Assembly: GCA_018969905.1 (NCBI GenBank)
Contig: JAGWXK010000009.1
Location: 1-43,396, forward strand
DNA from: Bdellovibrionales bacterium
Lineage (GTDB): Bacteria > Bdellovibrionota > UBA1018 > CAIMNF01
Reading direction: 5' to 3'
Length of the DNA stretch: 43,396 nucleotides
The notes below the pieces were generated by a model, which worked only from the letters and a program-made list of their open reading frames with translations, did not search any database and was not told where the DNA came from. Made by a program: the position numbers and the translations under genes. Every line of letters starts with the position of its first letter. The stretch's first letter is position 1. Below are positions 2,599 to 43,396 of the stretch, piece by piece.

Positions 2599-3840
2599 TC
2601 ATTCGGGTTTGTAAACCCGGCCCATAAAATAAATTTCACTGCTTTCACGATTCAAGAGCAGATAGAGAAATGGCTGATTGCATAGAAATTGCTTTTTCGG
2701 TTTGAGGTCGAGGCTTGTGGTTTCCATTGTGAGAGCCGTGGCCGCCGCTGCGGTGGTGCCTTGCTCGTCCACGTCCAGCGAAATGGCTTGAACCACATCA
2801 CCAAGGCTAAAATCGGGATCAGCAGAAATGGACACCCATTCCCCGGGAGCAAAGAGCTTTGAATATCCGGCAAGCAAGAGATCTTCCTTGAGGGAGGATT
2901 TTTCACTCATCTTGAACTTAGGCAACGCAAGCTCAATGCGCTCTTCTTTCATTTTGGTCATGGTGTCACTTACCGATGCGGAATCAAGCCTTGATTCCAC
3001 TGTTTTCAGATCAAAATCCTTCCGAGGCAATACAAGGATCATTGAGAGTGGAGAGTCTTTATAGGGGATTTCAAGCCATTTGGAATCATCATTTTCATGA
3101 AAACGGAATGAATGCACTTTTCGCATCATCTTGACCGAGTGACTTGCCGTCTCGGAGTTTCGGAAGGGCTCCTCCATTGTGGCGGCCTTCTCGAAAGGAG
3201 CGGCCCAATCCCCCTTGAAATAAATTGCATTCACGGCCACGAACGCAATTCTTTGATCCAAAGATTCGAGCAGTGATGGAATCTTGCCTTCAGTAATGGA
3301 CTTGACCCAGAGATTGATCTCTTTCAGGCTCAACGGACTGACCTGCGCGGAAATGGATTTCAGATGAGCCAGGTAGCTTGAGCTAAGGATCTTTGGATTC
3401 TTTAGCCAAATGGAGTTGCCGATCAGGAGCTTTGAGTTCTTGTCTTTTGAATGATTGAGGCGATTGGAGAGATCGCGTTCCGCCTTGAAGTGATTAGACT
3501 CTTTTGAACTGAAACCGAATCCGGCTTCCAGTGCAAGGCGTGCGTTCTCACCGGCTGCGGGATAAACCATCTCAAAGGCCATTTTCAAGCTGAGAGGGGA
3601 GTGAGCGAAGTTTCTTGGCTGGCCCGTGTGCAGTTTCAGGATCTGAAATGAAGCTTCTCCCGGTTTCAATGAAATAGGCGCGGGGTAGTCAGATCCCTTG
3701 ATGGTTGAGCTTGTCCGTGATGCGGGGGCGGCCATCTCTTCTTCCGGAGTGGCCACCTCCTTTTTGGTGCAGGAGGTGATTGCCATGAGTGTCAAGAGCA
3801 CATAAAGGATCTTCATGGAATTTGTTGTAACACGGATCAT
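2599..3840 (-). CDS. Serpin (serine protease inhibitor), predicted lipoprotein
   Basis: This 413-residue protein is a full-length serpin domain behind a lipoprotein signal. The signal runs MKILYVLLTLMAITSC, with the lipobox cysteine at C24. Serpin hallmarks are FVAVNAIYFKGDWAAPF in the middle, the reactive-loop hinge DEQGTTAAAAT near residues 355-365, and the C-terminal PFLYLL...IYFMGRVYKP. Counting from the hinge glutamate as P17 places P1-P1' near Thr-Ser in METTSLD. This would suggest an elastase- or subtilisin-like target, but the register is uncertain. The alanine-rich hinge is that of inhibitory serpins. ATG 3840 overlaps the upstream permease stop (ATGA); ATG 3816 is an alternative start at the signal itself. 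It is probably the last gene of the operon that begins at 9616. Confidence 0.9.
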   Translation of the reverse strand: MIRVTTNSMKILYVLLTLMAITSCTKKEVATPEEEMAAPASRTSSTIKGSDYPAPISLKPGEASFQILKLHTGQPRNFAHSPLSLKMAFEMVYPAAGENARLALEAGFGFSSKESNHFKAERDLSNRLNHSKDKNSKLLIGNSIWLKNPKILSSSYLAHLKSISAQVSPLSLKEINLWVKSITEGKIPSLLESLDQRIAFVAVNAIYFKGDWAAPFEKAATMEEPFRNSETASHSVKMMRKVHSFRFHENDDSKWLEIPYKDSPLSMILVLPRKDFDLKTVESRLDSASVSDTMTKMKEERIELALPKFKMSEKSSLKEDLLLAGYSKLFAPGEWVSISADPDFSLGDVVQAISLDVDEQGTTAAAATALTMETTSLDLKPKKQFLCNQPFLYLLLNRESSEIYFMGRVYKPE

Positions 3841-39058: not shown

Positions 39059-39162
39059 CACCTCCGGAGTGTGAGGCATTTGCCTCCGAGCCGCATCCTG
39101 CGGCCTCGCTTTCGTCAGTCCATACTCGCGAGAGTCGGCAAATGCCTCACACCCCGAAGGTG
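39059..39162 (-). repeat. Structured intergenic repeat, copy 2
   Basis: The core 39082-39139 (minus strand) matches 53/58 bases of the copy at 11416-11473. It is closed by a perfect 16-bp stem, GTGTGAGGCATTTGCC (39069-39084) with GGCAAATGCCTCACAC (39137-39152). This extends outward to CACCT (39059-39063) and AGGTG (39158-39162) with two mismatched pairs, for 24 of 26 pairs. The arms are unrelated to those of copy 1 while the core is kept. The element lies in the 346-nt gap between the M48 and thioredoxin genes. The remainder of the gap shows no gene. Confidence 0.8.
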
Positions 39163-39282: not shown

Positions 39283-39723
39283 ATGGAAACCTACGCGCCG
39301 TGTCCCAAATGCAATCGACTGAATCGTGTTCCCCTGAAGTCAGAACAGGGCGGCTCGCGGCCTGAGCCCGTGTGCGGAGCCTGTAAGATTGCGCTCCCCG
39401 TTCATGGCGCTGTGGTCGAGGTGAATGCAGAAGGGTTGCAAAAGCTGATAGATAAAAGCCCCATTCCGGTCGTGGTTGATTTCTGGGCGCCATGGTGCGG
39501 GCCGTGCCGGATGTTTGCGCCGACCTACATGCAGGTTGCGGGCGCGCATTCGGGGAGTTATGTTTTTGCGAAAGTCGACACCGAGGCGAATCCGATGGTC
39601 GGGGATCGTCATAGAATTCGAAGCATTCCCACTCTTGCCATTTTCAAGAACGGAACCGAAGTGCAACGACAAAGTGGCGCGATGAATGAATCAGGACTCA
39701 AGCAATGGCTAGGCCTTCGGTAG
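39283..39723 (+). CDS. trxC: Thioredoxin with N-terminal zinc ribbon (TrxC/thioredoxin 2-like)
   Basis: This 146-residue protein has two zinc-binding pairs at the N-terminus (C7-x2-C10 and C31-x2-C34) and a thioredoxin domain with the active site WCGPC (W71, C72, C75). The IRSIPTLAIFKNG segment carries the cis-proline. It is a cytoplasmic disulfide reductase. An AGGAG lies 6 nt before the ATG. The MGMT-like gene starts inside its 3' end (19-nt overlap). Confidence 0.93.
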   Translation: METYAPCPKCNRLNRVPLKSEQGGSRPEPVCGACKIALPVHGAVVEVNAEGLQKLIDKSPIPVVVDFWAPWCGPCRMFAPTYMQVAGAHSGSYVFAKVDTEANPMVGDRHRIRSIPTLAIFKNGTEVQRQSGAMNESGLKQWLGLR

Positions 39724-40046
39724 AAAAATTAAAGCGGGATCTGGAAGAGCAGGGCTGCACGCCCTTTCAAATCGAGGTTTTGCTCAAGACTGCGCAAATT
39801 CCGCGCGGCGAGACCCGAAGCTATTCTGAAATTGCCAATGCCATTGGACGACCAAAAGCCACACGCGCAGTAGGATCTGCGCTCAGGCGCAATCCCTATC
39901 CGGGAGAGCGGGTTCCGTGCCATAGAGTGATTCACAAGAGTGGCAGGATCGAGGGCTACATGGGTTCGCTTGATCCGGATTCTATCGAGAACAAGAAGAA
40001 GCGGCGGTTGCTAGAGCGGGAAATTGAGAGCCAGAGCCAAAACTAG
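39705..40046 (+). CDS. Short MGMT-type DNA alkyltransferase-like protein
   Basis: This 113-residue protein consists of only the C-terminal, DNA-binding and active-site domain of O6-alkylguanine-DNA alkyltransferases. PRGETRSYSEIANAIGRPKATRAVGSALRRNP is the helix-turn-helix with the arginine finger, and PCHRVI carries the acceptor cysteine C72. The cysteine is present, so it is not an ATL protein in the strict sense (those have Trp or Ala there). The usual N-terminal domain of Ogt is missing. It likely repairs or senses alkylated bases. An AGGA lies 8 nt before the ATG within trxC. Confidence 0.87.
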   Translation: MARPSVEKLKRDLEEQGCTPFQIEVLLKTAQIPRGETRSYSEIANAIGRPKATRAVGSALRRNPYPGERVPCHRVIHKSGRIEGYMGSLDPDSIENKKKRRLLEREIESQSQN

Positions 40047-40211: not shown

Positions 40212-40424
40212 ATGAAAACATTAAAACATGAAATAGTTTTGATTCTTCCTCTGTTGTTTTCAGTTGGTTGCGCGGTAGAGGTCAGGGGTAGAGCTTGCAC
40301 CACTGCCGATGGTTGCTTGGAGTCCGAGAAGGTAGTTGTGTCGCCCAAGGTTTGTGGAGTGGTTTCAGGCACGGGCTCAGGCTCAAGCACCTCAGGCTCA
40401 GCGAGTTCAGAGGGCGGATGTTAA
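40212..40424 (+). CDS. Small predicted lipoprotein, Ser/Gly-rich
   Basis: This 70-residue protein has a lipoprotein-type signal (MKTLKHEIVLILPLLFSVGC, cysteine at 20) with GAGG 7 nt before the ATG. The tail is a low-complexity Gly/Ser stretch (SGTGSGSSTSGSASSEGGC) that ends in a cysteine. The nucleotide sequence here is a set of GGCTCA-type repeats, which suggests growth by slippage. It converges on the coiled-coil gene (4-nt overlap). Function is unknown. Confidence 0.6.
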   Translation: MKTLKHEIVLILPLLFSVGCAVEVRGRACTTADGCLESEKVVVSPKVCGVVSGTGSGSSTSGSASSEGGC

Positions 40425-41242
40425 CGCTCTGCTTCGATTTTACCTAGGCCTGTTTCGAGTTCATTGATTTGGTTTGATTTCTCAGTGATCAGTTCATTGG
40501 TGGATTCTAGCTCTTTTCGTAAACGCGTGGGGTCTTCATTTTCTCGAGTCCGGAGGAGTTCCTCCAGACCTTTGATCTCCTTGATATCCCGTTTGATTCT
40601 GGACCTGACGCCGCTGACGGAAGAGGAGTCCCCTTGCTCTTTGTGGGCATCGATAAATGCATTTTGTTCGGATTGAACGGCCTTTAACTCTCGTTTCAAT
40701 TCGCTGAGTGCCTCACCGGGTTGAGTCGCTTGCCAGGAGACACCCGGATTTTCTTGTCTTCTCTTCGACTTGGCCTCCCGGATGGCGGTTTCAATCGATT
40801 TCAATCTGACGAGAATTGCCTGATAGGCGGGGTCGCTTCGCCATTCTGCCCGCTGGGAATTGATCTCGCGTTTCTCCTCCCGCAGGCGACGAACCTGCTC
40901 CTTCATTTCATCGATCTTTCGACGCAAGTTGATCGGATCCATCGAATCCAAAGAGCGAACACTTTCAAGCAATTGAACTTGTTTGGTTTGGAGATTCTTC
41001 AGGTCGAGCTTCTCTTTTTCAAGCCGAGTTCGAATTGAATCGATCCTTTTTTGAATCGTTTTATTTGTGCCTTTACCTGAATGATTCCTGCTGGTATTCA
41101 GTTCCCCGGAGTTTGCGATCGGAGCAGTCAAGGTGTCCGTGTGCCGCTCTAGTTGCTCAATTTTTTTTGAGAGTTCGTGGTTTCTGTAAATCGCAAATAA
41201 AATGATCAGAACCAAGCTTCCGTATGAGATGAATCGGAACAT
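40421..41242 (-). CDS. Membrane-anchored coiled-coil protein
   Basis: This 273-residue protein has one N-terminal transmembrane segment (FISYGSLVLIILFAIY) followed by long charged heptad-like sequence over most of its length (IRTRLEKEKLDLKNLQTKQVQLLE, LRRKIDEMKEQVRRLREEKREI, and others). No enzymatic motif is seen. It is encoded divergently from the candidate retron-like RNA, and only 31 nt separate its ATG from the first arm of that RNA, so their promoters must overlap. Whether it belongs to the RT cassette is unknown. Confidence 0.7.
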   Translation of the reverse strand: MFRFISYGSLVLIILFAIYRNHELSKKIEQLERHTDTLTAPIANSGELNTSRNHSGKGTNKTIQKRIDSIRTRLEKEKLDLKNLQTKQVQLLESVRSLDSMDPINLRRKIDEMKEQVRRLREEKREINSQRAEWRSDPAYQAILVRLKSIETAIREAKSKRRQENPGVSWQATQPGEALSELKRELKAVQSEQNAFIDAHKEQGDSSSVSGVRSRIKRDIKEIKGLEELLRTRENEDPTRLRKELESTNELITEKSNQINELETGLGKIEAER

Positions 41243-41273
41243 GAAACAAGCCTATCATAAAAAAGCAGAGCAG

Positions 41274-41455
41274 GGCGGGTCTTAGTCAAAGTGAACTTTA
41301 GCTGCTCTTCCAAGGAGTGCTAGAGTAAAAACTCTTCGAAGACCGGTACAAGACCCGGAAACATTCCCGTTACTGAAATGCGGCTTCCACCGCCCCAAGG
41401 GTTTCCACTCGGACCGGAAGTAACGAAGGGCCAGAGACCCTCGGTAAGACCCGCC
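41274..41455 (+). ncRNA. Candidate retron-like structured RNA (msr-msd-like)
   Basis: The 182-nt segment is bounded by a perfect 11-bp inverted repeat, GGCGGGTCTTA (41274-41284) and TAAGACCCGCC (41445-41455), comparable to the a1/a2 repeats of retrons. A G (41285) directly follows the first arm in the context CTTAG, the place of the branching guanosine in retron RNA. The 5' part has short hairpins: AAAG-TGAA-CTTT (41288-41299), TAGC/GCTA with CTC/GAG (41299-41322) and GAGT-AAAA-ACTC (41323-41334). The 3' part has a stem CGTTACT/AGTAACG (41368-41374 with 41419-41425), which encloses GCGG/CCGC (41380-41383 with 41390-41393). It is followed by AGGG/CCCT (41427-41430 with 41438-41441). A weak -10-like TATCAT lies at 41253-41258. 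Confidence 0.65.
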
Positions 41456-41500
41456 ACGCTCCGTCCAATACAGTGCCAAATTAAATCCATTCCAACAAAG

Positions 41501-41540: not shown

Positions 41541-41561
41541 CGATCCTGCTTGGAGAGCCCT

Positions 41562-42797
41562 GTGGATTCGTCACTCATCGAGAACGAACTTAAAAATCCT
41601 GGAACCTATGTGGCTGTATTGGAGCGTATTGCGGCAAGGGATATGTTCGGTCGAACCATTCCGGAGGCGCTCCAGGTCATGCTGTCGGATCCGGAGGCAA
41701 CAGCCGAAGCGATCACTCAATGGGTACTCAGGTCAAACGACCCGATGGCCCACTACCGTAAGCTTGAAATCAAGCAATCCGGCAAAACCCGCGTTATCTA
41801 CACTCTTTCGTGGCCGTATCGGGTCATTCTCATGGGAGCGCAAGTCGTCATCTCACGGCATCTTGAATCCAGATATTCGAATCGTCTTTATTCGTTTCGG
41901 AAAGGCCGCGGCACACTTACGGCCCATCGGGCCTTTCTTTCCTATCTTGAATCAAAGAAGACGGTGTATGTAGCCAAGAGAGACATCACGGGTTTCGGTG
42001 AATCCATTCAGGTGGAAAAACTGAAAACCAAATTTGCGACATTGTTTCCCCGCGATGAATTGCCAACGCTATATCGGATCATGGACCGGTCTTTTGCTGC
42101 AACCTTTATCGAGGGCGAAGAGCCACCCAAATCGCTGAATATCGGCATTCCGACCGGTTCGCCCCTGACTCCGGTGCTTGAGAATATCTATCTGATGGAT
42201 CTTGACCGAAAAATGGATGGCATTTGTGACGCGAGAACGGATTGTTTTTATGCGCGCTACGGAGATGATTTCATTTTGGCCTGCCCCGATGAGGAGTGCT
42301 TTAAAGTCATTACTGCTGAAATGGATTCCGAAATCGAACAGCTCGGACTCCAATATTCCGCGAAAAAGAAAATCGACTGCCATCTTGGAGGGGAAACCCG
42401 CTACCTCGAGTGGCTCGGCGCCACATTCATGGCCGGAGGCAGGATCGGCCCGAGGCCAAAGCACTTTCGTGAAATTTATTTTGATTTCAAGTGCTCATTT
42501 CAGAGGCTTCTGAACGAACTTTCGGTTCGAGTCGGCTCCTACGATCAATCAAAGCCCGCCATTCAAAGCGCGGTGCACCAGTTCCTGACGCTACAGAGCA
42601 ATCCCAAGCTTGGTAAATTGGTGGTGAACCAGAATCATCCGGCGATCACGAAGCTCGTGGATCAGAATGTGCGAGTGATGCTCGTTCGTTGGCTCACGCA
42701 TGAATTCAAGATGAAAAAGTCTAGGGCTTGGAGGGAATTGAGGTCACTCAAAGCACCTTCTCTCAACCGACAGAGGAGAATGCGATGGAAATCGTGA
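41562..42797 (+). CDS. Reverse transcriptase (RVT_1), atypical, linked to the retron-like RNA
   Basis: This 411-residue protein has RT motifs in order. These are a KSGKTRVIYTLSWPYRV-type RT1, YSFRKGRGTLTAHRAF (RT2), catalytic D141 in KRDITGFGESI (RT3), GIPTGSPLTPVLENIYL at 195-211 (RT4), and Y233-G-D235-D236 in YARYGDDFILA (RT5). RT6/7 follow with TRYLEWLGATF, then a C-terminal helical region of about 120 residues. There is no endonuclease or maturase domain. YGDD and PTGSP differ from the YADD and PQG-A-TSP common in retron RTs, and I cannot find the retron VTG motif. I chose GTG 41562 because GGAGA lies 5 nt upstream; TTG 41550 is in frame. The stop overlaps the next gene by 13 nt. Confidence 0.9.
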   Translation: MDSSLIENELKNPGTYVAVLERIAARDMFGRTIPEALQVMLSDPEATAEAITQWVLRSNDPMAHYRKLEIKQSGKTRVIYTLSWPYRVILMGAQVVISRHLESRYSNRLYSFRKGRGTLTAHRAFLSYLESKKTVYVAKRDITGFGESIQVEKLKTKFATLFPRDELPTLYRIMDRSFAATFIEGEEPPKSLNIGIPTGSPLTPVLENIYLMDLDRKMDGICDARTDCFYARYGDDFILACPDEECFKVITAEMDSEIEQLGLQYSAKKKIDCHLGGETRYLEWLGATFMAGGRIGPRPKHFREIYFDFKCSFQRLLNELSVRVGSYDQSKPAIQSAVHQFLTLQSNPKLGKLVVNQNHPAITKLVDQNVRVMLVRWLTHEFKMKKSRAWRELRSLKAPSLNRQRRMRWKS

Positions 42798-43396
42798 GCT
42801 CGCCTGAAAGACAATCCGGGAGTGAGTTCGAACTTGAGCGTATTTTTCGTTTCAAGACCGGGGATGCCGAGGCCCCGTCTTTGTTTTCAAACTCCTGGTC
42901 CGGTTTTATGGGCTACCTTTTTCACAGGAATCGCGGATTTTTTCAGCGCAAGGTTTTGAACTTGGCCAGTGAGGTTGTCGAATTGGCCTGTCTCAGCCTT
43001 GCATTTGATCTCGGACTCCTGAAGTCCCTTCTCCTTGTTCCCCTGGTCCACATTCTGATCAATCAACTTGCGGAATTCCACTGGCAGCTCTCGCGGACGT
43101 TGCCCGGGGCATGGCGCGAACGCAGAGTGAATCCGCTCGATCTTGGCCTCTGGGTTTTGTCGGCATTTTTTCTTGTAATTCTTGGGTTTTGGATGGGTTC
43201 CAAGGACGACACCCGCGGAATTCTCTCTACTTTGGTGGCGATTCGGGCTCTGGCAGTGGTGGTTCAACTTTTGTTTGCGCCTGCAGTCGCCCGCCTCACC
43301 ACCCTTCGCCGGGTTCGTCCGAATCTGACCCTGCTTCGGGCGGGGACGGTCGGAACCTGGGCTCTGTGCATCGCTGCCGCCTATTTTTTTTCCGGA
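42785..43396 (+). CDS. Multi-span membrane protein, 3' end outside window; candidate RT partner
   Basis: The frame is open from ATG 42785 to the window edge (204 codons). An AGGAG at 42774-42778 lies 6 nt before the ATG, which sits inside the RT gene, so the two are co-translated. After about 60 soluble residues it shows hydrophobic segments near residues 60-95 (two), 110-130, 145-165 and 185-204, so at least five helices are likely. I recognise no family from this part. Type IV retrons have small two-helix membrane effectors; this protein is larger. Its position supports, but does not prove, a partner or effector role. Confidence 0.8.
   Translation, partial: MEIVSSPERQSGSEFELERIFRFKTGDAEAPSLFSNSWSGFMGYLFHRNRGFFQRKVLNLASEVVELACLSLAFDLGLLKSLLLVPLVHILINQLAEFHWQLSRTLPGAWRERRVNPLDLGLWVLSAFFLVILGFWMGSKDDTRGILSTLVAIRALAVVVQLLFAPAVARLTTLRRVRPNLTLLRAGTVGTWALCIAAAYFFSG

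Follow-up and report, generated by a model that had tools for sequence, protein, structure and literature searches.

The window analysed here is a stretch of 43,396 nt, positions 1 to 43,396 of contig JAGWXK010000009.1 from a Bdellovibrionales bacterium (assembly GCA_018969905.1). At its downstream end an intergenic inverted repeat is followed by a gene encoding a reverse transcriptase (RT) and by the beginning of a gene encoding a membrane protein. The features of the locus are the following:

40421–41242, minus strand: divergent upstream gene encoding a coiled-coil-like protein, no Pfam match
41274–41455, plus strand: predicted structured ncRNA, candidate template or scaffold of the RT (fold z = -2.9; position, arms and covariation in homologues)
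41274–41284, plus strand: arm 1, GGCGGGTCTTA, a1-like, predicted 5' strand of the closing stem P1; exact complement of arm 2, with equivalent arms of other sequence in most relatives
41285–41294, plus strand: unpaired linker after arm 1, with the putative branching G at 41285, which is not conserved (junction table, alignment)
41295–41326, plus strand: 5' hairpin P2 (41295–41302 with 41319–41326), present in the minimum-free-energy (MFE) and centroid folds, with a hairpin at the same place in homologues
41357–41406, plus strand: tentative pseudoknot helix PK1, GGAAAC (41357–41362) with GTTTCC (41401–41406); similar topology and two-sided changes in homologues
41368–41425, plus strand: tentative pseudoknot helix PK2, CGTTACT (41368–41374) with AGTAACG (41419–41425); A-U in the window versus G-C in L018 and L027
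41426–41442, plus strand: hairpin P4 (AAGGGCC...GACCCTC), just 5' of arm 2, strongly conserved with L018 and L027
41445–41455, plus strand: arm 2, TAAGACCCGCC, a2-like, predicted 3' strand of P1; complement of arm 1, with equivalent arms in relatives
41562–42797, plus strand: RT ORF, GTG start behind GGAGAG (alternative start TTG at 41550), active site YGDD, RVT_1 E = 1e-17
42785–43396, plus strand: ORF of a polytopic membrane protein (profile search), overlapping the RT stop and cut by the contig end

The two arms are exact reverse complements with a gap of 160 nt, and arm 1 is directly followed by G and then T; on both points the first-pass annotation had read the sequence correctly. Extended, the arms comprise 17 nt at 88% complementarity (41268–41284 and 41445–41461), and the RT ORF starts 106 nt downstream of arm 2. 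Over the whole 43 kb such repeats are not uncommon: a search for perfect arms of 11 nt separated by 20–200 nt gave eight overlapping 11-mer matches at three places, compared with a shuffle mean of 2.9. A perfect 11-nt repeat of that kind was contained in 43 of 5000 dinucleotide shuffles of the 307-nt intergenic stretch, so that the repeat of the window is by itself suggestive, not decisive; with G-U pairs allowed, the score of the arms corresponded to p = 0.0075. No terminator was found.

The MFE fold of the RNA (-73.5 kcal/mol, z = -2.9) pairs both arms, in agreement with the folding check which had been proposed for them. The proposed order of short hairpins first and a longer stem second is present in this fold of a single sequence. 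Relatives do not preserve the longer stem, and in them it has a competitor in a pseudoknot-like pairing. For PK1 and PK2 jointly, 35 of 500 shuffles were equally good, so that the pseudoknot, weak when taken individually, is marked as tentative. The RNAs of group A, the RT group to which the window belongs (see below), share a layout of linker, hairpin P2, unpaired stretch, possible H-type pseudoknot, hairpin P4 and arm 2. An Rfam scan of the window yielded no match.

For comparison, whole-genome searches in the phylum Bdellovibrionota yielded about 20 loci, which belong to a single RT clade (loci are coded L, genomes G, each with a number). A strong inverted repeat within the 360 nt 5' of the RT was present in 12 of 16 testable independent loci, with gaps of 77–160 nt and differing arm sequences. 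Compared with shuffles these 12 loci reached p <= 0.07, ten of them p <= 0.03. The combined Fisher p is 6e-12; 3 of 31 control windows within RT genes fell below 0.05. No significant perfect arm was detected in L022, L025, L069 and L070. Arm lengths, with gaps in nt in brackets, are 11 bp in the window (160), 14 in L018 (156), 16 in L027 (156), 13 in L066 (142), 13–14 in L067 (145–147), 16 in L068 (147), 17 in L072 (77), where the perfect arms are longer than at any other locus, 11 in L021 (81), 11 in L020 (83), 9 in L019 (88), 13 in L026 (113), 10 in L023 (117) and 9 in L014 (110).

Within L066–L069, ten pairs carry two-sided changes, four of them in the closing stem alone; the shuffle mean was 4.4 and none of 500 shuffles reached as high a number. 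When the partners were slid by 1–3 columns, pairing fell from 94% to 43–58%. Complementarity kept despite differing arm sequences, together with the two-sided changes, argues for pairing of the arms, which would thereby enclose a structured RNA. Independent drift of the two arms, named by the first-pass annotation as the observation which would speak against the pairing, is thus not what the homologues display. The covariance model suggested there as a further check was less successful, as a model built from L066–L069 does not find the RNA of the window. The sequence of the ncRNA is not conserved across the whole clade, and MAFFT-based consensus folding of the window with distant homologues was poor. 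The structured RNA predicted between the paired arms measures about 100–190 nt.

In L027 (G007) the ncRNA occurs as a tandem duplicate (2841–3027 and 3126–3313), the first copy diverging mainly around hairpin P2; the near-identical L018 is without a duplicate. In L070 (655–661) the stop of the upstream gene lies 6 nt before the RT start and leaves no room for an ncRNA, which may be located elsewhere, overlap the gene or have been lost.

A maximum likelihood tree divides the RTs into group A (support 100/99), consisting of the window, L018, L066–L069 and L071, and group B (94/95), with L014, L019–L026 and L070. The genome of the window carries one copy of each group (C30 and C92), and genome G306 harbors three RT operon copies (L070, L071 and L072), two belonging to group B and the third to group A. 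The clade was seen only in Bdellovibrionota and its named records are metagenome assemblies. Pattern scans based on the single RT found nothing in the genome and viral collections; alignment-based scans retrieved only Bdellovibrionota loci among the genomes and nothing among the viral contigs, and tblastn against plasmids and phages gave no matches other than distant RTs, of group II type or of other kinds. The AF2 model of the RT has a pLDDT of 88. In Foldseek searches DRT9 ranked first, followed by the group II RT GsI-IIC, G2L4, DRT2 (within the top 15) and a DGR RT, with the group II RTs about level with DRT9 (TM 0.62–0.65). Sequence models scored 90 bits for a generic RT, 84 for UG26, the best specific PADLOC model, 82 for CRISPR RT-Cas1, 72 for Drt2 and 57 for retron II-A, and no cut-off of an NCBIfam model was approached. 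The RT represents a previously unclassified lineage that falls into none of the retron and UG families which the searched libraries name. Group II intron and G2L4 RTs resemble it in overall fold and in sequence (TIGR04416, 80.7 bits), but the cut-off of 300 is not reached and the RT stands in a fixed operon with a membrane protein. A group II intron is not supported, as the Rfam scan of the window revealed no intron RNA around the RT.

Another contig of this genome, C109, encodes the remaining C-terminal part of the membrane protein, which matches residues 231–567 of the homologue from L059. The next, overlapping ORF on C109 encodes a secreted HKD PLD-like protein that shares 35% identity with its PLD-like counterpart from L059. 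Based on the complementary coverage of one gene, the window contig and C109 presumably adjoin across an assembly gap. Since C109 carries both the missing C-terminus and the PLD-like ORF, the operon of the window would read ncRNA – RT – membrane protein – PLD-like protein. The membrane protein comprises about 560–670 aa with 5–12 hydrophobic segments in a simple hydropathy scan; no Pfam family and only incidental PADLOC matches were obtained, and its AF2 model has a pLDDT of 44. A profile of this protein gave 15 matches in 14 of 369 genomes, all of them carrying this RT, and each match lies beside it or at a contig edge. RT and membrane protein are strictly linked.

In group A the third gene encodes a protein with one HKD motif (PLDc_2) which, going by its N-terminal sequence, is exported. 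In group B a gene for a surface protein is located directly upstream of the RNA, with 12–88 nt between its stop and arm 1. These surface proteins form one family, united by a C-terminal domain of roughly 200 aa; a lipobox is present in several and Ig-like repeats in one, and within the phylum all matches of their profile fall at group B loci. In G047 (L025) the surface-protein gene is nearby in a different orientation. The surface protein of L026 (2379–4634) carries HYDIN/ASH-type Ig-like repeats N-terminal to the common domain. Profile searches of the membrane protein and the group B surface protein against the PDB found nothing.

The Pfam scan of the neighbours did not reveal any known defence genes. 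The divergent coiled-coil gene was considered as a common neighbour of L018 and L027, which was not supported (25% identity, E = 0.035). Further upstream in the window, an intergenic inverted repeat with perfect arms of about 16 nt (GTGTGAGGCATTTGCC...) and a gap of about 52 nt at 39069–39152 is possibly a repetitive element or a terminator, and a small alkyltransferase-like gene (39705–40046; MGMT C-terminal type with a PCHRV motif) adjoins a thioredoxin-like gene.

Among the alternative explanations, a system of the class 2 UG/DRT type, with protein-primed, possibly repetitive synthesis from a template beside an ncRNA pseudoknot, is a serious candidate, although it falls short of being probable. 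The Foldseek ranks of DRT9 and DRT2 and the position of UG26 among the PADLOC models point in this direction, as does the tentative pseudoknot 3' of an unpaired segment, an arrangement reported for the DRT2 ncRNA (PMC12039810). DRT10, which according to PMC12632851 consists of a UG17 RT, a 137-nt ncRNA and a SLATT protein, likewise combines an RT with an upstream structured ncRNA of similar size and a membrane protein; the same paper links membrane proteins to DRT1, DRT3 and DRT9 too. However, no UG family matches at member strength: the 84 bits of UG26 are close to the scores of the generic RT and CRISPR RT models, Drt2 reaches 67.7 bits against a cut-off of 390, and UG17 only 56 bits. The polytopic membrane protein without family match, the exported partner and the long arms that close the ncRNA also differ from DRT10. 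In the DRT descriptions consulted, DRT2 and DRT9 are presented as RT plus ncRNA, DRT9 only sometimes with SLATT, and neither long a1/a2-like closing arms nor a dedicated polytopic partner nor exported proteins are mentioned.

A true divergent retron, in which a G near arm 1 would prime a 2',5'-branched msDNA and the msd would be located 5' of arm 2, is in our estimation unlikely. The first-pass annotation had pointed towards this interpretation, and its structural part has held: an ncRNA with a1/a2-like arms directly 5' of the RT is predicted computationally (12 of 16 loci, covariation), and as in Ec86 and its relatives an effector-like gene is linked. Neither the branching G nor the retron identity was supported. 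The base after arm 1 in 13 rows is G, A, A, G, A, A, C, G, T, A, T, A and A; the closest relative has A, so that even among near relatives the G is not kept. As a retron-like priming site, the motif UU(G/U)AGC at the linker end would be slightly more plausible, which is found in the window, L018, L027, L066 and L069; it is not universal, as the AGC is absent from L067, L068 and group B, and in the window the AGC (41301–41303) sits in the 5' strand of P2. The RT itself does not group with retron RT models. All 18 clade members checked are without NAxxH and without VTG at the expected places and have YGDD or FGDD instead of YADD. NAxxH and VTG are present in most experimentally validated retron RTs (PMC6868368), but their absence alone is not exclusive, since only 59% and 47% of retron-like RTs, respectively, possess them (PMC4244168). 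Moreover, the NCBIfam retron models stay far below their cut-offs (retron_St85, 55.5 versus 235 bits), retron structures appear in Foldseek only from rank 21 (Ec86) on, behind DRT9 and the group II RTs, and an exported partner distinguishes the clade from retrons.

It is very improbable that the arms match by chance or belong to a regulatory hairpin without relation to the RT. The occurrence of a perfect 11-nt repeat in about 1% of local shuffles would allow it, but it is contradicted by position and complementarity being kept across the clade while the arm sequences change, and a gap of 160 nt is long for a terminator. Least credible is a diversity-generating retroelement with the group B surface protein as target and the RNA as template repeat, as the superficially similar order surface protein – RNA – RT is opposed by the lack of any near-repeat or template repeat/variable repeat pair between RNA and neighbouring gene at 16 loci, by the weak sequence match of the DGR RT 8ub7 (27 bits) and by group A, which is without such a target.

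On balance, it appears probable that the repeats close an ncRNA dedicated to its RT partner and that the operon represents a new, non-mobile RT lineage, an RT–ncRNA system with an envelope-directed output which would work in the manner of retrons or class 2 DRTs and probably serves defence. Its resemblance to retrons and to defence RTs notwithstanding, the present tests place it in neither of the two. For this reading the RNA structure rests on covariation, the RT fold on prediction and the operon on gene linkage. The two repeats would form the strands of a long-range stem closing the ncRNA, which the downstream RT would bind and in part reverse-transcribe. Retrons prime from a 2'-OH, DRT9 and DRT10 from a protein residue, and either way could apply here. 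The resulting ribonucleoprotein or its cDNA may control the membrane protein, and the exported partner may act or sense at the envelope. As the RT belongs to no curated family, such mechanisms are transferred by analogy. By analogy with retrons and DRT10, defence would be the likeliest purpose, with predation or surface biology of Bdellovibrionota as a possible alternative.

Among known retrons and DRTs an exported partner is, to our knowledge, uncommon, and most characterised RT defence systems work inside the cell. It is conceivable, though doubtful, that the RT–ncRNA complex, its dedicated multi-pass membrane protein and the exported protein, either a secreted PLD-like nuclease/lipase or a surface lipoprotein, constitute a system whose cDNA or ribonucleoprotein acts at or passes through the envelope of these predatory-type bacteria. 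Because groups A and B both occur in the genome of the window, the parts are separable and testable. No description of this combination of genes and RNA was found in the literature, with subscription papers mostly outside the coverage, so that its novelty is provisional. The findings add an RT lineage that has a covarying RNA as partner and is tied in a fixed manner to membrane and exported proteins. If an RT operon linked to the envelope holds true, one would have to ask what role reverse-transcribed DNA plays at the membrane.
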